The position numbers and the translations under genes are program-made. Positions 4,702 through 27,373 of a DNA stretch of 64,000 nt are shown here, piece by piece. The stretch is from assembly GCF_018811945.1 (NCBI RefSeq), contig NZ_JACRVU010000001.1:9476-73475 (forward strand), given 5' to 3'. The stretch's first letter is position 1; every line of letters starts with the position of its first letter. The notes beneath the pieces are model-generated. The model worked only from the letters and a program-made list of their open reading frames with translations, had not been told where the DNA came from and made no database searches. This DNA is from Gluconobacter sp. P1C6_b (GTDB lineage: Bacteria; Pseudomonadota; Alphaproteobacteria; Acetobacterales; Acetobacteraceae).

Positions 4702-5940
4702 ATGCGTTCCAAGGAACTGCGCGCCAAGCGTGCAAAGCTGATTTCTGACGCCCGCGCTTCGATCAACGGCGAAACCGTCACTGCCGAACAGAACGCCCAG
4801 TTCGATGCCATGATGGCCGAAGCTGACGAGCTCAAGGCGCGGATCGACCGCATCGAGGCCGCAGAGGCAGCCGAAGCAGAACTGGCTGGCCAGATCGCTG
4901 CCCGTGGCGAACACGAAGGCCGTGGCGCTGATGAACAGCGCGACCGTGAGACGCAGGAAGTCCGCGTCTTCGGTGCCTGGCTGCGTGGCGGCATGGACAA
5001 CCTCTCCGGAGAGGACCGTGTGTTCGCGCTGAACCAGGCGCGACTGGGGACCGAGTTCCGCGCTGCCCAGAGCACCCAGACCGGCCAGGCTGGCGGCTAC
5101 CTCGTGCCCCCGCTCTTCGCTGATCAGCTGCTGGTGGCCCTGAAGGCCTATTTCACGGCACTGGATCTGTTCGACGAGATTCCCACCGCAACTGGCGCAC
5201 CGCTGCCCTGGCCGACCAATGACGACACGGCAGCCCGTGCCAAGATCATCGGTGAGAACACCACGATCGGCACCAGCGACCTGAAGTTCGGGATCTCCAG
5301 CGTCCTGGCCTATCTGTATGCCACGGATGCCGTCCTGGTGCCCTGGACGCTGATGCAGGATTCCTTCCTGGATCTGGATGCCTTCCTGCGCACTGCTCTG
5401 GCTACGCGCTTCGGCCGCACGCTGGCAGATGATCTGACCAATGGCACCGGAACGAACATGCCGCAGGGTGTCTGCACGGCCGCTGGCGTGGGTGCAACCA
5501 CGGCAACCGTCGCCATTGGCTATGACGACATCCTCGACCTGCAGCACAGCGTGGATCCGGCCTATCGTCAGGGCGCTTCGTTCATGCTGAACGACACGAC
5601 GTTCAAGGCTCTGCGCAAGCTGAAGGATGACGAAGGCCGTCCGCTGTGGTCTCCGTCCATCGCTGCGGGCGCACCGGACACGTTCGCGGGCTCTCCGCTG
5701 AACATCAACCAGAGCATGCCGGACATCGCGGCCGGCAATAAGGCCATGCTGTTCGGCAACTTCAAGAACTATAAGTTCCGCAACGTGAAGGGCATGTCCG
5801 TCGTCCGCCTCAATGAGCGTTACGCAGACTCCTTGCAGACGGCATTCTTCGGATACGGCCGCTACGGCGGGGGCATGCCGACACCTGGGGCCGCCATCAA
5901 GGCCCTCCAGACGGGCACCGCAGCACCCGCTGGCGGCTGA
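4702..5940 (+). CDS. Major capsid protein (HK97 gp5-like)
   Basis: Main shell protein, 412 residues from ATG 4702, which has AGGAAT 5 bases upstream. The frame is open from 4621, but that earlier stretch contains a hairpin and does not look like capsid sequence. The first 100 residues are a charged coiled-coil delta domain (RAKRAKLISDARASING through the Glu/Ala-rich part) expected to scaffold assembly and be clipped by the protease. The rest is the HK97 fold with typical segments GGYLVPP and DLFDEIPTATGAPLPWP and a C-terminal FFGYGRYGGG. Codon use is strongly biased to C/G-ending codons, as expected for high expression. Confidence 0.95.
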   Translation: MRSKELRAKRAKLISDARASINGETVTAEQNAQFDAMMAEADELKARIDRIEAAEAAEAELAGQIAARGEHEGRGADEQRDRETQEVRVFGAWLRGGMDNLSGEDRVFALNQARLGTEFRAAQSTQTGQAGGYLVPPLFADQLLVALKAYFTALDLFDEIPTATGAPLPWPTNDDTAARAKIIGENTTIGTSDLKFGISSVLAYLYATDAVLVPWTLMQDSFLDLDAFLRTALATRFGRTLADDLTNGTGTNMPQGVCTAAGVGATTATVAIGYDDILDLQHSVDPAYRQGASFMLNDTTFKALRKLKDDEGRPLWSPSIAAGAPDTFAGSPLNINQSMPDIAAGNKAMLFGNFKNYKFRNVKGMSVVRLNERYADSLQTAFFGYGRYGGGMPTPGAAIKALQTGTAAPAGG

Positions 5941-18147: not shown

Positions 18148-20817
18148 ATGACACGTACGCCGCATCCCTACACAGCCGATCCGGAGATCTACCTGGTCTC
18201 GGGAGACGGAATCTGTCGCAACAACATGCATTACGAAAGCGGGCGTGCCGGATATCTCCCCAACGACGCTTCCACGTCTGAAAGCCAGGCGCTTCTGGCA
18301 CGCGGCTACGTCCGGCATTATCTGGCGACCGGACGCGCGGCATCCCTGGCAAATGCCCGGACCCTAGCTAATGCCGCCATCCGGTATTTCTTTCTGGGCG
18401 ATCCACCCGATGACCCCTCCACCCCTTGGAATCATCACTGGGTGGTCAATGCCGGAGACAGCTTCAACATCAAGGGGCCCGTCTCCCCCGATGGCCATGC
18501 GTTCGATGGTGTTGTGGCAGCGGATGTGACGTTTACAGACGGCGTAGCAAACCTTCCGGCCACACTCTCGAATGTGTACGGTGTGTTTACGGGGGTGCCT
18601 GTCTGGGGGAATGTTTTCTCCAAACTTCAGGACGGCGGACAGTTCCATGAGATCGACTGTTTTGTCGACCGGGACGGTTATCTGTTTACCTATGTCAGTG
18701 GCGCGGCTGACAGTATCGAATTCAGTGTTCCAAACGAAACCCAGAGTGCGATTGCCCCTGGCACTCTTAGACTGAAGGACACGACGCTCTCGGGAAACTT
18801 CAGGGTCAGTTATGCCCTGTGGGACGATACGATTTCAGTCGACTATGCGGCCCGGTTCGATGCATGGCCGCTGTGGCATGCCGTGGATGACACGACCTTC
18901 AATACAGCACCGGATGCACTTGGTTGGTTTGTGGATCTTTTTGACCTGCTGGCCAGGCATGACACCCTGACACCGACGCGCTGGGGACAGGCCCGTGATG
19001 CCCTTCTGGGCATCTGGCAGAAGGTCTGCGTTCTGACCTCATCAGTTCCATTTCTGTTTCGCAGGGATCCAGACGGGGTCACCTACGACAGCTGGCCTCT
19101 GACCTATCTGAATGTGCTCATGACGGACGGGTCCACGAAAGCCGCCCCCACGTCGGCACTGACCTATGCGCGTGAGGCGGGGAGCGGACTGGCAGTCTTT
19201 ACCTTGCCTGCAGACGTCAACCGGGCTGCGTTCCGGTTTGTCCAGGATGCTGCCAGCCTGTCGCTCGGTGCCGAATCCGGGATCCGTGCAGAGGTCAGCA
19301 GTACTGTGGCGCAGACATTGTCCCTACGTCTGACAGCCCGCCTGGCCACGGGAGAAAGCGGGACCTGGACAGCCTCTCTTCAGGCGACGACAGCCTTGCA
19401 GACCACAATACTGTCTCTGGCAGACTTTGGCATGGGGGGTGTTCTGGCATGGTTGCCAGGGACCACGGAATTCACCTTTGGATCGGTTCAGGCATCGACA
19501 GTGTCTGCGCAGACGGATACGGGCCAGTCTGTCCTGACGCGGACCTATGTCATTGCGGATACAGGCGCCGGAGCGGGTTTCTCGGTTTCGTCTGTTCCGG
19601 GGTGGTCAGACGGAACGGCACCTGTTCTGGCTTATCTGACCTCACAGGTCACAGGTGTTCTGACGGTGGTCGATGCGGCGGGATGGCGGTGGGAATACTC
19701 TCTTCCGTCGCGGAGCACGGCGGATCCTCTGGTTCTGTCGTGGAGCAATTTCCGCGCGTCGTCCTATCAGACGAACACCGGCAGCCCTCCGGCGCAGGCC
19801 GGAACTGCCACGGGAGCGTTGCAGACCATCCAGTGGGGTAACACGTCTGCGACCACGCCCTGTACTCTACAGGTTATCGCGGTTTACAGCGCGGCTCCGT
19901 ACAGTCTCGGAGCCAGGGCAGTCCTCTCCCGTGCAGAGATTGTCGACACGATCACTGATGCCCATACCCTGACTATTGGCGATGTTCAGGTGACCGGGGC
20001 GACAACGGTGAACCAGCCTTACACGCCTGGAGCACTGCCATTTGGATGGGGGTCGTCATCAACCGGTCAGTATGCGTCCGGAGGAGGTGGAACCTGGCAG
20101 GGTCCGGCTTATATGGGCTACCAGCAACCTGCCGTCTGGTTCCTGATTGGCGATTTTGGCGCAGCGAAAAACATGCTCCAGATGATGCGGGACAGCCAGA
20201 AAGCCTACACGGCGCAGTCGCCCAGTGGAGCCAGTGGGCCTTTCGTTCCGACTTGGCTGTTTCATCAGTGGGACTCTGAACAGTATGGCGCGGGCGGTAC
20301 GTTTGTATTTGGTGGTCCGGATCCAAACTGGTTCTGGGGCGGCTACACGTATCGGGCTTTTGCGCATGCGGCCGATTTCTGGCAGCGCTGCATTCTGTCG
20401 GGATATCTGGCCGACACGGGCGGATCTGAGGCTGAGCAGGCCACGGCGCTCGCGCAGGACGTGGCGGGAGCATTTCTGGGATGGCTGAACAGCTGGCTGG
20501 GTCTGAATCCGCAAGCCTTATCTCTACCCACACAGTTTCAGGCCGCGCAGGATCCGTCCGAGGTTATGGCGGAGCCGCATCAGGTGGCACTAGCGCTCAA
20601 GGGTGCCCTGTGGTGCAAGATGGCGGGCTATGACAGCACGGTCTGTGCCACCGTAATCGACCGTCTGATCGGCATGCTCGATGCTGCCGTTGTTACCGTG
20701 GGCGACATGGCAGGATCGCTTTCGCCCAATCCGGACGGACATCAGTTCTACTCATTCTGGGCCGGGGAAATCCTCGATGCCCTGTCTCTGTACATGCTGA
20801 ATTACGGATCGGAATGA
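18148..20817 (+). CDS. Large tail tip protein, possible polysaccharide-active domain
   Basis: At 889 residues this is the last structural gene. The N-terminal 130 residues are Tyr/His/Asp-rich helical sequence (DPEIYLVSGDGICRNNMHY, then GYVRHYLATGRAASLANA). The middle (about 130-560) is beta-rich. The C-terminal 230 residues are helical with many Trp and Asp (GYQQPAVWFLIGDFGAAKNM, FVPTWLFHQWDSEQYG, DPNWFWGGYTYRAF, MAEPHQVALALKGALWC). That pattern recalls six-hairpin glycosidases, so an exopolysaccharide-degrading depolymerase is plausible for a host that coats itself in glycans. No catalytic residues can be fixed with certainty. Confidence 0.55.
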   Translation: MTRTPHPYTADPEIYLVSGDGICRNNMHYESGRAGYLPNDASTSESQALLARGYVRHYLATGRAASLANARTLANAAIRYFFLGDPPDDPSTPWNHHWVVNAGDSFNIKGPVSPDGHAFDGVVAADVTFTDGVANLPATLSNVYGVFTGVPVWGNVFSKLQDGGQFHEIDCFVDRDGYLFTYVSGAADSIEFSVPNETQSAIAPGTLRLKDTTLSGNFRVSYALWDDTISVDYAARFDAWPLWHAVDDTTFNTAPDALGWFVDLFDLLARHDTLTPTRWGQARDALLGIWQKVCVLTSSVPFLFRRDPDGVTYDSWPLTYLNVLMTDGSTKAAPTSALTYAREAGSGLAVFTLPADVNRAAFRFVQDAASLSLGAESGIRAEVSSTVAQTLSLRLTARLATGESGTWTASLQATTALQTTILSLADFGMGGVLAWLPGTTEFTFGSVQASTVSAQTDTGQSVLTRTYVIADTGAGAGFSVSSVPGWSDGTAPVLAYLTSQVTGVLTVVDAAGWRWEYSLPSRSTADPLVLSWSNFRASSYQTNTGSPPAQAGTATGALQTIQWGNTSATTPCTLQVIAVYSAAPYSLGARAVLSRAEIVDTITDAHTLTIGDVQVTGATTVNQPYTPGALPFGWGSSSTGQYASGGGGTWQGPAYMGYQQPAVWFLIGDFGAAKNMLQMMRDSQKAYTAQSPSGASGPFVPTWLFHQWDSEQYGAGGTFVFGGPDPNWFWGGYTYRAFAHAADFWQRCILSGYLADTGGSEAEQATALAQDVAGAFLGWLNSWLGLNPQALSLPTQFQAAQDPSEVMAEPHQVALALKGALWCKMAGYDSTVCATVIDRLIGMLDAAVVTVGDMAGSLSPNPDGHQFYSFWAGEILDALSLYMLNYGSE

Positions 20818-20849
20818 CCGCACAGATGGCTTTCCGATCCTGTCTTCAT

Positions 20850-20872
20850 GCTGCCTCCGGGCGGCTTTTTTT
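20850..20872 (+). terminator. Intrinsic terminator between tail and lysis genes
   Basis: GCTGCC-TCCG-GGCGGC forms a 6-bp stem (one G-T pair), followed by seven T residues. It closely copies the element at 7371: the same TCCG loop and the same TTTTTTTATG end, 12 bases before the next start codon. Confidence 0.85.
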
Positions 20873-20883
20873 ATGGAAAAACG

Positions 20884-21222
20884 ATGCCTGATACCGTCAC
20901 GGCCACACCGACCGACCAAGCCCTCACCGAAAAAGACATCATCATCCGTGCCCTGGAAGATCGGGTTCTCAAGCTGGAAACTTTGGTCTCGGCTCTGGGA
21001 GATAATCAGTCTGATCTGCGAGCGGAGATGCGATCGGAAATCGCATCCCTGCGCAACCAGATCAACGATCTGAAGGAAGATCTGGAAGCCGGGATCAAAG
21101 CGCTCGGCTCCAAGGTCGATCGCGTCATAGGCGGCAAAGCCGTGGTCACGGCGCTCGTCACTCTGGCGACCTCGATCCTCGGATCCGGGGTGGTTCATTT
21201 GGTGGTGTCGATCGGACAATGA
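20884..21222 (+). CDS. Coiled-coil membrane protein, putative holin component
   Basis: The 112-residue protein from ATG 20884 has a long amphipathic coiled coil (about residues 20-85, ALEDRVLKLETLVSALGDNQ onward) and one C-terminal transmembrane segment (AVVTALVTLATSILGSGVVH). The layout is that of XhlA-like holin-associated proteins. The frame is open to 20848, but that part overlaps the terminator hairpin. It overlaps the endolysin-like gene in ATGA, fitting a lysis cassette. Confidence 0.65.
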   Translation: MPDTVTATPTDQALTEKDIIIRALEDRVLKLETLVSALGDNQSDLRAEMRSEIASLRNQINDLKEDLEAGIKALGSKVDRVIGGKAVVTALVTLATSILGSGVVHLVVSIGQ

Positions 21223-21698
21223 CGGGCCTCAATCTTTCACAGATCAAACGTCTGTGGATCCGTCCCGCCTTGCAGGCCATCGGCCTGGACGATCCGGCTC
21301 ACGTCAATATCGTGACGGGCATCGGGCTGGTCGAGAGCGGCTATGTCTGGCTGGAGCAGCTGCACGGTGGACCTGCCAGGGGGTTCTGGCAGATGGAACC
21401 TGCCTCCCATGACGACATCTGGAAAAACTCGTTGCCGGCACCGTGCCGGTCGAAGATCGCGTCCGGATTGAACCGTCTGTTGTACGGCCAGCCTCATTCC
21501 GCCGATCTGATGATCGCGCTCCCGCTGTATGGCGCGGGCATGTGTGCGGTCAAAGTCCTTCTGGCGCCTGAACCGATTCCGGCCGCTGACGACGCGGCCG
21601 GTCAGGCGCGGTATCACAAGCGCTGGTACAACAGCCCGCTTGGCGCGGCCTCTGTGATGGCCAACATCTCGGACTTTCAGGCCGCGATCACCGCCTGA
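21219..21698 (+). CDS. Putative endolysin, transglycosylase-like
   Basis: A 159-residue protein with IGLVESGYVW near residues 35-44, giving Glu39 as likely catalytic acid, followed by RGFWQMEP, the paired pattern of lysozyme/transglycosylase folds. It would cut the peptidoglycan glycan backbone. No signal peptide is seen, so export would need the neighbouring holin. It is translationally coupled to the coiled-coil membrane protein. Substrate specificity is inferred. Confidence 0.65.
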   Translation: MTGLNLSQIKRLWIRPALQAIGLDDPAHVNIVTGIGLVESGYVWLEQLHGGPARGFWQMEPASHDDIWKNSLPAPCRSKIASGLNRLLYGQPHSADLMIALPLYGAGMCAVKVLLAPEPIPAADDAAGQARYHKRWYNSPLGAASVMANISDFQAAITA

Positions 21699-21725
21699 CT
21701 CTTCCTCAAAAATCTGGAGAACACC

Positions 21726-22061
21726 ATGGACTGGACAACCCTGTTCCAGACGGTCCTGCCGTACCTGCCTGCCAAGTATGCCGGCGATCTCGTCTCGATC
21801 CTGACCTTCCTGATCGCGGCGGCCGCACTGGCCATGCGCTTCTGGAAGCCGCCCGCCTTGGGCAGCAAACTGGCGCTGCTCTACAAGGCTCTTTCTGCTC
21901 TGGCACAGTCGAAGGGCTGGAACACCAACGCCTATCAGCCCGATGCCAAGGCGCTGATGATCCCAGCCGATGCCAGCCGCACGATTGAGGCGGTCAAGCT
22001 GGGCCTCGATCCGGCCTCGACCCATCCGAAGTCCGGCGAGCCTCCCAAACCGACCGCCTGA
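21726..22061 (+). CDS. Small membrane protein in lysis cassette
   Basis: A 111-residue protein with one strong transmembrane helix near residues 22-42 (DLVSILTFLIAAAALAMRFW), preceded by a short periplasm-like segment and followed by a polar Pro/Lys tail. It follows the putative endolysin by 27 bases with a GGAG site and is closed by a terminator. A holin or pinholin role fits position and topology, but I recognise no family. Confidence 0.5.
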   Translation: MDWTTLFQTVLPYLPAKYAGDLVSILTFLIAAAALAMRFWKPPALGSKLALLYKALSALAQSKGWNTNAYQPDAKALMIPADASRTIEAVKLGLDPASTHPKSGEPPKPTA

Positions 22062-22105
22062 CCCGAAGGAGATGGGCTTCCGCCTGTCAGACCGCTCTTT
22101 CTTCC

Positions 22106-22130
22106 ACCGCCCTTTGAGGCGGTTTTTTTT
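22106..22130 (+). terminator. Intrinsic terminator in lysis module
   Basis: ACCGCC-CTTTGA-GGCGGT, a 6-bp stem with a 6-base loop and eight T residues. It lies 44 bases after the membrane-protein stop and just before the lipoprotein gene. Confidence 0.85.
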
Positions 22131-22145
22131 GTGTCTGGAGACATC

Positions 22146-22682
22146 ATGCGTAATCTCTTTTCGTTTCTTGAGGGCTGGTTTGGCCGTCCGGCCCGTTCGC
22201 TCTGCGCCCTCCTTCTCGTTGGGTGCTTCGGGCTGGCGGCTTGTCAGACCACGCCGAATACAGCCACCTTCAACACGGCCGCGCTCAACAATGACGCCAC
22301 GGCCATCGCCTATGCCGTGCAGGCGATCGAGGGCATTCCGGAACTGGAAAGCCACCTGTCTGCTGCGGACAAGGCGAAGTTCGACAACCTGATTGCCCAG
22401 ATCAGGAGCGTGACGGCACAGGTCGCCGCCAACTCGAACGGCGCCATCACCGTTTCCACCGGCAGGGACTGGGCCCGGAGCCTCGGAGCCGATCTCGAAA
22501 CCCTGCTGGCGATCGCAACGCCGATCGTGAAGGCCTATTCGCCGTCGACGGCCGGTTACATGAGCACGGTATCCGCAATGATCCCGCTGGTCGAAGCGCT
22601 GGCCGGTGTCACGGCCGCACCCTATGCCGCACCCATCCAGTCTCCGGAGCTGATCCGCGCCCGGATCTATCAGGGGGTTTGA
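22146..22682 (+). CDS. Phage-encoded lipoprotein
   Basis: 178 residues from ATG 22146, preferred over GTG 22131 because CTGGAG lies at a proper distance. An arginine-containing N-region and hydrophobic core end in a lipobox FGLAAC with lipidated Cys33. The mature part is helical and Ala/Thr/Asn-rich (AALNNDATAIAYAVQAIEGI). Being in the lysis region it could act as an outer-membrane spanin, though it is longer than typical o-spanins; superinfection exclusion is an alternative. No family recognised. Confidence 0.55.
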   Translation: MRNLFSFLEGWFGRPARSLCALLLVGCFGLAACQTTPNTATFNTAALNNDATAIAYAVQAIEGIPELESHLSAADKAKFDNLIAQIRSVTAQVAANSNGAITVSTGRDWARSLGADLETLLAIATPIVKAYSPSTAGYMSTVSAMIPLVEALAGVTAAPYAAPIQSPELIRARIYQGV

Positions 22683-22684
22683 GG

Positions 22685-22936
22685 ATGTCGCAGCATGTTT
22701 TTTCCGGTGTTCCGGATGGCCGCCAGTCCGCTGACACTTGTGAAAAGATGTCCAGGTTTCGTCCCAAATATCGAGCGCTTACCGATGAGGAAAAGGAACT
22801 GCACGACCGGCTGAAGGCGAAGGCCGTCGAGCTAGAATCGCTAATCGAAGAGATCAAGCCGGGCCGTTATCGCAGCTTGGCGATGACTGACCTTGAGGCC
22901 GCGATCATGTGGGCGGTGAAGGAACTCACGTCCTGA
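22685..22936 (+). CDS. Acb2/Tad1-like small protein (putative anti-CBASS/Thoeris sponge)
   Basis: An 83-residue protein starting at ATG 22685, two bases after the lipoprotein stop, with AGGGGG upstream. Residues 33-83 form a charged helical hairpin: ALTDEEKELHDRLKAKAVEL, a short turn with KPGRYRS, then LAMTDLEAAIMWAVKEL. The Leu-Ala-x-Thr-x-Leu-Glu-x-Ala-x-x-Trp-Ala-x-Lys signature is that of the Acb2/Tad1 hairpin family, which sequesters cyclic nucleotide signals of CBASS and Thoeris defence. From memory, Acb2 ligand binding needs Tyr11 and Lys26; Tyr29 and Lys44 here have the same 15-residue spacing. Assignment by motif; function inferred. Confidence 0.7.
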   Translation: MSQHVFSGVPDGRQSADTCEKMSRFRPKYRALTDEEKELHDRLKAKAVELESLIEEIKPGRYRSLAMTDLEAAIMWAVKELTS

Positions 22937-22941
22937 CGACA

Positions 22942-22973
22942 GGGGGAGCGGCTTCGGCTGCTCCCCTTTTTTT
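22942..22973 (+). terminator. Strong intrinsic terminator with TTCG tetraloop
   Basis: GGGGAGC pairs with GCTCCCC and the stem continues G-T, G-C, C-G to a TTCG tetraloop, giving ten pairs, followed by seven T residues. It ends the lysis/Acb2-like unit just before the peptidase gene. Confidence 0.92.
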
Positions 22974-22988
22974 GTTTCCGGAGATCCC

Positions 22989-23741
22989 ATGCAGGACAGA
23001 AAACTAGGCAAGCGCGCCCCGAAACACGATCCGCGCACCTATCGCCTCAGCCGGGTGCTGGCCGTGCGTCTGCCAGCCGTACCCGCTGCGCAGGACTGGT
23101 CGCAAAACGTGCCCTATCAGATGTGGGGCAATGACCGCTTCGGCTGCTGTGCCTTTGCGGCTCACGCCGCCCTGGTGGCGACCTGGACGAAGGCCGCACA
23201 GGGTCTGGTCATGCTCTCGACCGAGACGGTGCTGGCGAATTATGCGGCGCTCACGGGCTTCGACCCTGCAACCGGGGCCAATGATAACGGCACCATCCTT
23301 CTGGACGAGCTGAACGCCTGGCGCCGTGAGGGTCTCCTGCGGCCGGGGCAGACGCGCGATTACCTCACGGCCTATGGCTCGATTGTGCCCACGGATGTCG
23401 TCGCAATCCGCCGCGCCATCGCCTATCTCGGCGGCGTGCTGGCCGGTGTGCAGGTGCCACGCGGATTCCTTGAACTGGGTCTCGGCGAGACCTGGGACTG
23501 GAATGCCATCACCGATCACACGCCTGCCGGGGGGCATGCGATCGCACTTGTCGGATACAATCCGGATGGCGTGTTCTTCAATACTTGGGGCGCTCGCACA
23601 TTCATGCCATGGGACACCTTCACGCGGATTGCAGACGAGGCTTACGGCCTGCTGTCGCGGGAGAACTGGCTGGGCGTTCCTGGCACGGCCCCGACCGGTG
23701 AGGACTTCGACGCCCTGCTGGCGGAAGTGAGGGCCGCATGA
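22989..23741 (+). CDS. Papain-like cysteine peptidase (C1-type fold)
   Basis: The 250-residue protein has GNDRFGCCAFAAHAAL (Cys54 or Cys53 as nucleophile), GGHAIALVGY (His183) and GVFFNTWGARTF (Asn198), the ordered Cys-His-Asn triad of papain-like peptidases. There is no signal peptide or pro-domain. It lies past a strong terminator, after the lysis genes, and its stop overlaps the start of a lipoprotein gene in ATGA. Its role is unknown: virion entry, superinfection control or lysogenic conversion are all open. I am sure of the fold-level call, not of the function. Confidence 0.75.
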   Translation: MQDRKLGKRAPKHDPRTYRLSRVLAVRLPAVPAAQDWSQNVPYQMWGNDRFGCCAFAAHAALVATWTKAAQGLVMLSTETVLANYAALTGFDPATGANDNGTILLDELNAWRREGLLRPGQTRDYLTAYGSIVPTDVVAIRRAIAYLGGVLAGVQVPRGFLELGLGETWDWNAITDHTPAGGHAIALVGYNPDGVFFNTWGARTFMPWDTFTRIADEAYGLLSRENWLGVPGTAPTGEDFDALLAEVRAA

Positions 23742-24334
23742 GGACTCTGACGCTTTGCGGCCTGCTGGCTCTGTCGGCCTGTTCGACCGGATCCGTTGCG
23801 CCCGTCACGATCAGTCAGGCGATTGCAGGCGTGCAATCGGACCTGACACAGGCCGGTGTCGTCAGTGTCTCGGGCGTGCAGCACTGGACGGCCGATCAGG
23901 CCGCCCGGTTCGACGCGAACGTCCGGGCGCTTCAGTGCGCGCAGCAGACGTCGGATCCGGTCGTGGCAATGATTGCCGGGCCGGTGACGATGAATCTGTC
24001 AGGGACGTTCAGCCAGTCGGGCTCGTTCTCCGTATCGGCATCGTCGGCCGTTCCGGTCTTCGGGCTCCAGGCCGATGCCAGCCGGACGAAAGGCCAGACC
24101 TTGAACGTGCCCGTCCAGTTCGTGCCGCTTTCCGCCCTGGCTGATGCGGAGGCCGGGCGGCAGGTCGGCTATGCCGGGGCGCTATTGGCGCAGAGTGATG
24201 CCGTGCGGGAGGGAGTGGCTGCTCGGATTGAGGCAGACCGGACGGCACTGGCAACGCATGTCGAGGTGCTGATCTCGTATGTGCTAAGCTGTTTTGATAA
24301 GCAGATCCGAACATTTGTGGGCGTTAAGAAGTAA
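23738..24334 (+). CDS. Lipoprotein coupled to cysteine peptidase gene
   Basis: A 198-residue protein with a short signal sequence MRTLTLCGLLALSAC; the lipobox LSAC puts the lipidated Cys at residue 15. The mature part is Ala/Ser/Val-rich, with a low-complexity beta stretch (MNLSGTFSQSGSFSVSASSA) and a helical C-terminus. It is translationally coupled to the papain-like peptidase, suggesting a joint task at the envelope. The last codons drift towards A/T-rich usage at the border of the AT-rich island. Family not recognised. Confidence 0.6.
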   Translation: MRTLTLCGLLALSACSTGSVAPVTISQAIAGVQSDLTQAGVVSVSGVQHWTADQAARFDANVRALQCAQQTSDPVVAMIAGPVTMNLSGTFSQSGSFSVSASSAVPVFGLQADASRTKGQTLNVPVQFVPLSALADAEAGRQVGYAGALLAQSDAVREGVAARIEADRTALATHVEVLISYVLSCFDKQIRTFVGVKK

Positions 24335-25442
24335 TAGGAATTGTTGCTACTGAGTGGCACATTCGGATTGGGTCGAGAAGTTTATTCAATAATGTATCGT
24401 ATAATAATATAATTATAGTTATTTTATTATACGATAATTATTCTTTATCTTCTTGAATTGTTTTACCATTATTCTTTCTGATTTAACGGCGGTAATAAAT
24501 ATTAATGGTATAATTGCAGAAATTCTTAAAAACCTTATTATATTATTGTGTGGCCCTCCGCCCCTCACTACCATTCCACACAATTTTGTTATGCCATCGT
24601 AAGCAGAAAATACAGGCGATCCGCTAAGCCCATTAATGGGAAATAGTACCGATTTTGGGTTTGTTACCCTAACCTCTGTCAATGCACCATTATCTTTTAT
24701 GTTCGCGCGTTCGCATATCAAACTCCTTTGATCCAACACAATACCCTCTTTTTCGTAGTCTATTGTATTAAAAGCTTCTGGATATCCCGTAACTAGGAAA
24801 AGAAAACATTTTTTTATATCAATTTCTTTTTCTACATAAATATTGTCTATACCTATTTTTCTAGCATCTATCTTAAATACATCTACGTCACCATCAAATG
24901 CATTTGAGTCTGCTTCAAATATAGCTACATCCGAAACATCTTCATCATCATATATATCAATATACTCTTCAACATTCTGAATTGGATGATAAGCGATAAC
25001 GGGAACCCAATCTTGATCAGTGAGTTTTTTTCTATCGATTGTAATTCTTCGTTTTAATATTTTAATTTTGTCTAATGAATCTGAATCAATTGTATTGGTT
25101 AGTCTATTCGATATAACGTGCAATGCTGTTATAATAAAGTATCTCTTTCTTAATCCATAAGACCATTTTATTATGAAGCAAGTTCCCCCTCTCCATGTAT
25201 CAATAAAATCTCCAGTACCACTATGATATATAATAGGCCGGCAGCATCTTTCAGCTCTTTTTATATGTCTTATGTTTAATTTATGTCTTCTCAAATAATC
25301 TTTCATTTATTCGGGCTCTATTCTGTGATATGTTGTAATTTTGGTTAAAATATAGTTTGTTTCTTGATTTCATATTAGAATCTGGATGTTAAAACTTATA
25401 CAATTATTGTCAATTTCCGAGAGGGGCCGATGTAAGAGAACG
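24335..25442. other. AT-rich island inside the prophage
   Basis: Base composition drops sharply from the surrounding GC-rich DNA to strongly AT-rich across this stretch, which holds the serine protease gene and its flanks (84 bases before, 136 after). The flanks contain no other gene that I can support. The change is abrupt on both sides, between the lipoprotein stop and the umuC stop, and indicates a separately acquired cargo segment (a moron). Confidence 0.85.
24419..25306 (-). CDS. AT-rich trypsin-like serine protease, phage cargo
   Basis: A 295-residue protein with the ordered trypsin triad: His63 in FIITALHVIS, Asp126 in DVSDVAIFE and Ser228 in NGLSGSPVF. No signal peptide or membrane anchor is apparent, so it should act in the cytoplasm. 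It runs against the late genes and has codon usage full of A/T-ending codons and Ile/Lys/Asn-rich sequence, unlike every neighbour, so it was acquired from an AT-rich source. Cytoplasmic trypsin-like proteases occur as effectors in several bacterial antiphage systems, making a defence role plausible, but no partner gene is adjacent. Function not established. Confidence 0.75.
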   Translation of the reverse strand: MKDYLRRHKLNIRHIKRAERCCRPIIYHSGTGDFIDTWRGGTCFIIKWSYGLRKRYFIITALHVISNRLTNTIDSDSLDKIKILKRRITIDRKKLTDQDWVPVIAYHPIQNVEEYIDIYDDEDVSDVAIFEADSNAFDGDVDVFKIDARKIGIDNIYVEKEIDIKKCFLFLVTGYPEAFNTIDYEKEGIVLDQRSLICERANIKDNGALTEVRVTNPKSVLFPINGLSGSPVFSAYDGITKLCGMVVRGGGPHNNIIRFLRISAIIPLIFITAVKSERIMVKQFKKIKNNYRIIK

Positions 25443-26705
25443 TTACCAACTTCTCGCCCTTACGATCTCCTCCAGCCTGGTCGTGTAACGCGCCGATAAC
25501 AGAGACTGTCGCGGCGACCATGTCCGCTTCAGTCCCGTTGATCCCGGCCGGAGCGTCCCGCTTCCGAAACGGGCGTTCACCGCATCGAGTGCCGCCATGA
25601 CCGTGGCGGACTGAATTGGATCCCGGGATGCGAACATCAGGCCCTGGCTGCCAGCAGGACGAAGGTCCGACAGGATGACGCCTGCCTTGAAGTAACGATA
25701 GCCCGGGAGCCAGAGGGCGCGGCCGAGTTCTGTCGCATGACGGATCAGATCCCGGGCATCGGACGTGGGCTCGATCGTGATGGCTGCGTGTTTGGCGTAC
25801 CAGGGATCGCCATTGTGCGGATTGGTCTGCATCAGGACGGAGAGATGCGCCGCTTCCAGTCTATCCTCTCGCAGCTTCTCCGCGGCGCGTGTGGCGTAGT
25901 GTGCAATCGCCTCACGGATCTCGTCCCATTTCAGCAACAGGCGACCGAATGTCCGGGTTGAGGCGATACTTTTGCGGGTAGCAGAGATATCCGACAGAGG
26001 CAGGCAGGATTGCCCGCGCAGTTCCGCCTGAACGCGGCCACCCACAACCGTCAGCATCTGCTGAACGCTCTTTGTATCAAGCGCCACGAAATCAGCAATC
26101 GTCTCGATGCCTCTGTCCTGAAGTTTCTGTTTTGTCTGCCGGCCGATTCCCCAGACTTCCTCGATCCCGGTGCGGCGGTACCAGTCCTGGCGTACGACCG
26201 GGTCCATCAGATCGCACAGACCATCCAGATGCGGATGATCCTTCGCAAGACCATTCGCCAGCTTGGCAATCGTCTTGGTCGGCCCCCAGCCGATGCAGGT
26301 GGGGATCTTCGCGTGCTCGGCCACGTCCTGGCGGATCTGACGGCAGCGCTCATGCAGATCTCCGGGCAGGTCACTCAGATCGAGAAACATCTCATCGATC
26401 GAATATGGCTCTACGGCTGGCAGTCGCTCTGCCAGGACCTGATACATTCGCCGCGACATGTCAGCATACAGCGCATAGTTCGAGGAGTACCAGACGACCG
26501 ACTGGCTCTCGGGACGTTTGCGGGCGATGTGCCAGGCATCTCCCATTTTGACACCAAGCGCCTTGGCCTCGCGGGTCCGCGCAATGGCGCAACCGTCATT
26601 GTTGCTGAGCACCACAACGGGCCTGTGCTTCAGGCGAGGCTCAAACGCGCGCTGGCAGGAGCAGTAGAACGAATTGCCGTCGATCAGCCCGTAGACACGC
26701 ATCAC
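25443..26705 (-). CDS. umuC: Y-family DNA polymerase V catalytic subunit UmuC
   Basis: Translesion polymerase subunit, 420 residues, full length. The palm has the catalytic Asp9 in YGLIDGNSFYCS and Asp104-Glu105 in YSIDEMFLDLS; helix-hairpin-helix and little-finger regions follow (EEVWGIGRQTKQKLQDRGIE; ISATRKSIASTRTFG). It ends with the UmuC-specific C-terminal segment (LSARYTTRLEEIV). Its start overlaps the UmuD-like stop in ATGA. Expressed from the SOS-controlled promoter upstream of umuD. Encoded between the AT-rich cargo and the attachment site, so carried by the prophage. Confidence 0.95.
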   Translation of the reverse strand: MMRVYGLIDGNSFYCSCQRAFEPRLKHRPVVVLSNNDGCAIARTREAKALGVKMGDAWHIARKRPESQSVVWYSSNYALYADMSRRMYQVLAERLPAVEPYSIDEMFLDLSDLPGDLHERCRQIRQDVAEHAKIPTCIGWGPTKTIAKLANGLAKDHPHLDGLCDLMDPVVRQDWYRRTGIEEVWGIGRQTKQKLQDRGIETIADFVALDTKSVQQMLTVVGGRVQAELRGQSCLPLSDISATRKSIASTRTFGRLLLKWDEIREAIAHYATRAAEKLREDRLEAAHLSVLMQTNPHNGDPWYAKHAAITIEPTSDARDLIRHATELGRALWLPGYRYFKAGVILSDLRPAGSQGLMFASRDPIQSATVMAALDAVNARFGSGTLRPGSTGLKRTWSPRQSLLSARYTTRLEEIVRARSW

Positions 26706-27082
26706 ACGTCCGTTCGGACCAGGCCGGTGGCCACGGCCCAGATGGCGACATCCGTATCGTCATCGACCTGAACGGACGACGCCTGGGGAGAAGACGACCG
26801 CAGCCACCATTCTCCGGCACGCTGGGTCAGTTCGCAGACCCGCAGCTCATCCCCCACGCTCGCCACGACCACGACGCCAGCCCGGGGGGAGACGGCAGAA
26901 TCAACGACAAGAATGTCTCCGTGCCGGATAGAGCGGCCCAGAAGCGCATCGCCTTCCACCCGGACCGGGTACCGACTGGGCTGCCGAAGATCCAGGGCGA
27001 CCGACATCAGGTCAATCGTACCCTCGATGTTATCGCCTGCGGGGGATGCGAAGCCGGTCGTGCGGTCGCCTTGGTAATTCAT
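26702..27082 (-). CDS. UmuD-like protein lacking the Ser-Lys dyad
   Basis: A 126-residue LexA/UmuD-fold (S24) protein. ATG 27082 is preferred because GGAGG lies 8 bases upstream; ATG 27097 has none. It aligns well with UmuD (GFASPAGDNIEGTIDL, then SIRHGDILVVDSAVS). However, the UmuD catalytic Ser in GDSM is Ala here (EGDALL, residue 46), and the catalytic Lys in VKKL is Cys (RVCEL, residue 83). The N-terminal arm is short, and the cleavage dipeptide Cys-Gly is Thr-Gly. It therefore cannot self-cleave in the known way and may act as a constitutive UmuD'-like partner, similar in idea to phage P1 HumD. Confidence 0.85.
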   Translation of the reverse strand: MNYQGDRTTGFASPAGDNIEGTIDLMSVALDLRQPSRYPVRVEGDALLGRSIRHGDILVVDSAVSPRAGVVVVASVGDELRVCELTQRAGEWWLRSSSPQASSVQVDDDTDVAIWAVATGLVRTDV

Positions 27083-27102
27083 GTTTCTGGCCTCCATAAT
27101 GA

Positions 27103-27327: not shown

Positions 27328-27373
27328 TTTGGTAAGGGAGAGGTCGACAGTTCAATCCTGTCCAGCAGCACCA
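27328..27373 (+). repeat. attR: 3' half of tRNA-Thr(GGT)
   Basis: The sequence begins in an anticodon loop (TTGGTAA, anticodon GGT at 27331-27333), continues AGGGAG as the 3' side of the anticodon stem, variable loop AGGTC, a T-arm GACAG-TTCAATC-CTGTC, the acceptor strand CAGCAGC, discriminator A and encoded CCA. Nothing upstream pairs with the anticodon or acceptor strands, so the 5' half is missing. This is the classical scar of a phage integrated into a tRNA gene; the intact gene should be at the left end of the prophage. Confidence 0.87.

Follow-up and report, generated by a model that had tools for sequence, protein, structure and literature searches.

What does a short gene in the late-gene region of a Gluconobacter prophage encode, and which signal might its product bind? 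The gene lies at positions 22685–22936 (+) of a 64,000-nucleotide stretch of Gluconobacter sp. P1C6_b (contig NZ_JACRVU010000001.1, forward strand, 9,476–73,475; hereafter the window), and is an open reading frame (ORF) of 83 codons between an ATG start and a TGA stop. An initial annotation, made from the letters alone, had described the product as Acb2/Tad1-like. We find that it almost certainly belongs to the Acb2 family. Judged from sequence and predicted structure, the gene probably encodes a nucleotide-signal sponge of the Acb2 kind, whether its ligand is of the CBASS (cyclic-oligonucleotide-based antiphage signalling system) type or cyclic ADP-ribose (cADPR).

Profile searches carry the family assignment. 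Residues 28–79 match Pfam PF24729 (Acb2/Tad1, hairpin domain) with an E value of 2.3e-17 (63.4 bits against a cut-off of 27); the initial annotation had proposed a search of this hairpin family as a check, and the match is significant. PF24729 is also matched, at E 0.01 or better, by 57 of the 57 rows of the subfamily alignment described below. As a control, a hidden Markov model (HMM) was built solely from four Acb2-type proteins (PaMx33, T4 Vs.4 and the relatives L112 and L019) and used to search 877 stop-to-stop frames of the window together with 500 shuffles of the hairpin protein. The hairpin frame reached E 1.2e-4 (1.2e-3 for its best single domain), against 3.8 for the next frame of the window and 2.2 for the best shuffle. 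In a profile–profile comparison of the subfamily with four Acb2-type proteins, the entire hairpin was covered (probability 96.6, E 6.6e-10). Against the PDB, a profile of the wider family reached Acb2 homolog 43 (9PTQ) at E 1.1e-5 and Tad1 at 3.4e-4; these are the only independent rows of that search, as PaMx33 Acb2 and Vs.4 lie inside the profile and their rows are circular. With a profile of close relatives only, Acb2 scored E 0.07 and Tad1 0.34, and a direct phmmer search of the PDB with the hairpin protein gave an only suggestive E of 0.03. The PHROG matches are to two function-unknown families, 1454 (5.7e-9) and 717 (4e-5), and neither NCBIfam and PADLOC nor the plasmid collection held a match at E 0.01.

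The AlphaFold2 monomer model is a confident antiparallel two-helix hairpin (block pLDDT, the predicted local distance difference test, 91–98 in helix 1, residues 34–55, and helix 2, residues 61–82), bearing out the 83-residue helical hairpin that had been read from the ORF. Residues 1–28, here called the arm, are modelled as low-confidence coil with one two-residue bridge. In a Foldseek search of the PDB, the first 14 rows are chains of Acb2, Vs.4 and Tad1; the viral structure library gave no row at E 0.001 or better, and 17 of the 50 rows listed from it are named 'Acb2/Tad1 hairpin domain-containing protein'. Foldseek and VIA searches alone cannot separate the protein from generic hairpins.

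The protein has many relatives on viral contigs. A first search gave 12 IMG/VR loci and one contig of a Rhodospirillaceae metagenome-assembled genome, with relatives at 58–71% identity; in a profile-guided IMG/VR scan, 109 stretches encode relatives, and the figures rest on the best 80 loci, which are 55–72% identical to the window protein. From 93 loci, 67 distinct relatives were read, and 56 of these were aligned with the window protein (57 rows). Omitted from the alignment were L033, L070, L073, L079, L087, L089, L097, L101 and L102, as similar to rows that were kept, L011, which is cut at a contig end, and L012/L013, which have neither arm nor Tyr. Invariant across all 57 rows are D11, R13, Q14, F25, R26 and P27 in the arm, and Y29, R30, L32, H40, D41, K44, G60, R61, Y62, L65, T68, L70, E71, M75, W76, K79, E80, L81 and T82 in the hairpin. 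Among the distinct relatives, 66 of 67 retain D-x-RQ, FRP-x-YR-x-L and the Lys; the exception is the L012/L013 form. This form (4998–5192), with its different start and without arm or ligand Tyr, is either a decayed copy or a shortened version.

The conserved N-terminal arm, about 27 residues long, is the unusual feature of a protein whose family is otherwise known. Mean majority identity is 0.72 over residues 4–28 and 0.80 over residues 29–83, and the relatives can be aligned from about residue 4, which supports the ATG start. The window protein has 28 residues ahead of the Tyr, not the 10 of PaMx33 Acb2 or the 7 of Vs.4. L017 and L018 keep the D-x-R of the arm, as do the relatives from a Manatee Spring podovirus, Sinorhizobium phage Aussie and virus SI2, and it is missing from those of Mycobacterium phage Darrell and Paenibacillus phage Sitara; since distant relatives keep it, part of the arm may predate the subfamily. 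The short Manatee Spring, Aussie and SI2 proteins (37–41% identity) also share Y-R-x-L and MW with the window protein, but their arm is about six residues shorter in the alignment and lacks the SRFRP segment.

Next, we considered the ligand site. The motif LAMTDLEAAIMWAVKEL and the pair Tyr29/Lys44, at a spacing of 15 residues, are present as first described. Residues Y11, K26, R67, T74 and R85 of PaMx33 Acb2 align with Y29, K44, R61, T68 and K79; the first two, which we take to be ligand residues of PaMx33 Acb2, are the pair that the initial annotation had named, and they fall on Tyr29 and Lys44. For Vs.4, Y8, H11, K23, R79 and F82 are given as cGAMP (cyclic GMP–AMP) contacts and L29, A66, A73 and A77 as the hexamer interface, and A77I is reported to clash (PMC10097602). 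The five contacts align with Y29, L32, K44, K79 and T82, each found in 57 of the 57 rows. Thus, the Tyr and Lys contact columns are invariant and R79 of Vs.4 is conservatively replaced by Lys throughout, whereas two of the five ligand residues are changed subfamily-wide (H11 to Leu and F82 to Thr, both 57/57). At these two columns His and Phe are absent from PaMx33 Acb2 as well, so they are not family-defining. The interface residues align with L50, A66, A73 and A77; over the 57 rows, position 50 is Leu in 49, position 66 Ala in 36 and Gly in 20, position 73 Ser in 39 and Ala in 18, and position 77 Ile in 31, Thr in 19 and Ala, as in the window protein, in 6.

Among proteins of known structure, PaMx33/PaP2 Acb2 (p26; PDB 8H2J, 8H2X and 8IXZ) resembles the window protein in its hairpin family, in providing the best Foldseek rows and in aligning over the whole hairpin by profile. 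Compared with it, the window protein lacks 24 residues between the aligned helix parts and the QP-x-x-F tail, and carries MW in helix 2. T4 Vs.4 (PDB 7UQ2) shares the helix-2 pattern T-x-L-x-x-A-x-M-W-A-x-R/K and has its Y8 and K23 kept; besides the exchanges of H11 and F82, the window protein differs from it by a shorter hairpin and the added N-terminal arm. The helix T-x-L-E-x-A-x-x-W-A-x-K, which had been ascribed to the family at large, is indeed common to Vs.4 (TKLKEASMWACR), but PaMx33 Acb2 has no Trp there.

If the protein works as these relatives do, its subunits would assemble into an oligomer, which is a hexamer in PaMx33 Acb2 and Vs.4, and pockets between subunits would bind and hold a cyclic-nucleotide immune messenger. 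With the messenger held, defence effectors would stay off during phage replication after induction or infection. The arm of about 27 residues may pack beside the ligand Tyr and shape specificity. As to the messenger, CBASS-type cyclic di- or trinucleotides are the most likely ligands, with about an even chance of being the right ones.

A sub-case of the sponge reading, which we hold as a tentative possibility, is that the protein sequesters Thoeris-type 3'cADPR, the main alternative, or some other messenger, and not CBASS nucleotides. The title of PDB 9PTQ, 'Acb2 homolog 43 in complex with 3'cADPR', speaks for this, on the basis of title and alignment, and implies that ligand use in the Acb2 family reaches beyond cyclic di- and trinucleotides; literature searches for the entry, for Acb2 homologs and for Acb2 in connection with cADPR or anti-Thoeris activity turned up no paper describing it. 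Homolog 43 (69 residues in the structure library) is a similarly short hairpin, but at 21% identity, and its chain of 69–76 residues has no room for an arm. Together with 9PTQ, the subfamily-wide replacement of two of the five Vs.4 ligand residues makes it possible that the ligand has shifted relative to Vs.4, and the conserved arm could reshape the pocket. However, Tyr29 and Lys44, the cyclic-dinucleotide residues of Acb2, are retained, and among 26 genomes of the genus none matches the profile ThsB_TIR and one matches TIR_2. A narrower proposal, speculative and rather doubtful, is that of an 'armed' Acb2 subfamily, in which the arm (D-x-RQ ... FRP-x-YR) would fold onto the strand of the ligand Tyr and complete a pocket for a messenger outside the known Acb2 ligands, possibly a cADPR isomer or an undescribed signal.

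Candidate targets of a sponge were sought in the host genus. The own genome has no match to SMODS or ThsB_TIR, and the 26 genus genomes have none to SMODS, CBASS_cyclase_a or ThsB_TIR, these profiles covering part of CD-NTase/TIR and neither Panoptes nor Pycsar. The Cas10 palm2 profile matches in 8 of the 26, two of them over the cut-off, the own genome included. The own-genome match is a 431-residue ORF with a RIGGDEF motif, which identifies it as a GGDEF protein, and it was rejected as Cas10.

A further alternative, clearly unlikely, is that the hairpin fold has been kept for another phage job, such as that of a small virion protein or of an accessory to lysis. The late-gene region in which the gene lies here would suit such a role. 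So would two of its relatives: L017 comes directly after a gene homologous to 21219–21695, which is presumed to be a lysis gene, and the Aussie relative (L025 3468–3704, 'hypothetical protein') lies among head–tail connector genes, between those for the head-to-tail adaptor and the head-to-tail stopper. The latter placement is unusual for a counter-defence gene. By eye, L010 and L019 lie downstream of lysozyme-like ORFs, some distance away, and the Manatee Spring relative lies near recT and exonuclease genes. Against this reading stand the conserved ligand-residue columns and the lack of shared neighbours: when mechanical ORFs within 2.5 kb per side were clustered for 72 loci (93 minus 21 near-identical), the largest neighbour cluster was common to 6 of the 72. 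Among 82 upstream ORFs of relatives that were scanned, 3 match one terminase family, and among 25 of 106 matching upstream families there is a scatter of HNH, primase, polymerase, head and tail, with one endolysin family that has one member. As the neighbourhoods are unshared, the lysis-module position looks incidental, and late expression in competition with lysis, which the initial annotation had suggested, is unsupported as a rule. A conserved protein in unshared places fits an independently moving counter-defence gene.

That the gene is a decayed or inactive prophage remnant is very improbable. The left prophage end is off the contig, and SMODS and ThsB_TIR are without match in the own genome, both of which would agree with a remnant; but the ORF is intact, phage relatives are 55–72% identical over nearly the full length, and differences are biased to third codon positions. 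The third position takes the largest share against all six relatives compared, as in L034 (7, 8 and 31 differences at positions 1, 2 and 3) and L031 (16, 10 and 29).

Least likely of all is a Tad1-type anti-Thoeris protein: Tad1 (PDB 7UAV and 8KBF) shares the helix-2 motif (LT-x-x-EEA-x-MW in the window protein) and the name of the Pfam hairpin family, but it carries an N-terminal beta domain, according to PMC12043709, where the window protein has 28 low-confidence residues (65–85 precede the first helix motif in four Tad1-like proteins), and an hhalign comparison of the subfamily with these four matched 22 columns, part of helix 2 only, with a probability of 52. Tad1 membership was rejected on these grounds, the missing N-terminal beta-sheet domain and the missing whole-length profile similarity, so that, within the initial Acb2/Tad1-like reading, which is otherwise supported, the protein is of the Acb2 type.

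In 60 genomes drawn from the host's own genome, genus, family and class, the family is present in the own genome only; a survey of 385 genomes of the class gave 7 with a match at E ≤ 0.001, counting the own genome, and 6 over the cut-off. Of 42 phage-collection records with a match to the protein, 36 belong to Paenibacillus phages. L028 1974–2177 is among the matches; of the 40 rows listed, some are named 'phosphomannomutase' and most 'hypothetical protein'.

In the window, the gene follows a probable ribosome-binding site, AGGGGG (22672–22677, +), and begins just after a gene for a 183-residue product with a lipoprotein-like signal by eye (22131–22682, +), whose stop lies 2 nt before it and whose product matches neither Pfam nor PHROG at E 0.001. 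The two genes are likely co-transcribed. A strong terminator-like stem-loop of 12 pairs with a T-tract (22941–22968, +) stands immediately 3' of the hairpin gene, and another terminator-like stem-loop (22106–22123, +) precedes the pair, which may thus be a small transcription unit. Five terminator-like sites occur in 20700–24500, compared with a shuffle mean of 2.7 (sd 1.7), and no sigma-70-like promoter was found within this interval. An Rfam match to sbrA (32.3 bits against a cut-off of 45) overlies the terminator and was discarded. The adjoining gene at 22989–23741 (+) encodes a 250-residue protein that shows, by eye, signatures of a papain-like cysteine peptidase (GCC-x-A, GGHAIALVGY and NTWG). 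The protein matches PHROG 19005, a function-unknown family, and has no Pfam match.

Upstream lie genes for TerS, TerL, portal, head protease, major capsid, tape measure and tail proteins, which confirms the prophage location first proposed. The three genes at 20848–22061 (+; 124, 159 and 111 residues) are presumed to be of lysis type. None of the four genes in 20848–22682 has a Pfam match at E 0.001, and the sole PHROG match among them is that of 21219–21695 to phrog_3108, a function-unknown family; the "lysis module" named initially is a weaker label, given by position. The contig starts within the prophage, and an ORF in the 9.5 kb preceding the window is XerC/D tyrosine recombinase-like, below curated cut-offs (137 bits against 335 for XerC). 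On the right, the 3' end of a tRNA gene (about 27346–27373, +; T-arm and CCA, by eye) is a candidate for, and probably forms, the right attachment site (attR). ARAGORN detected no tRNA either in the window or in the preceding 9.5 kb, and no second copy of the tRNA end was found in the contig to its left. When 24 kb of the prophage were compared with the phage collection by megablast, nothing matched. Towards the right end, where the late region closes, an AT-rich gene on the opposite strand (24419–25306, −) has a serine-protease-like NGLSGSPVF motif by eye and a weak PADLOC PDC-S45 match (E 0.0085), and is a moron candidate; UmuC-like polymerase and UmuD-like genes (25443–27097, −; phrog_1268 and phrog_811) follow.

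Acb2-family sponges point to bacterial immune messengers, and once a ligand is known the defence can be inferred. Here, a probable sponge is found in a genus in which the CBASS cyclase and ThsB profiles tried detected no usual messenger producers. If the proposal of an armed subfamily is true, it would account both for the frequency of these proteins in phage contigs and for their presence in a genus without matches to these profiles. With 109 viral-contig stretches, a conserved arm and two replaced ligand residues, the subfamily is well suited to probing for a messenger or specificity not yet recorded.
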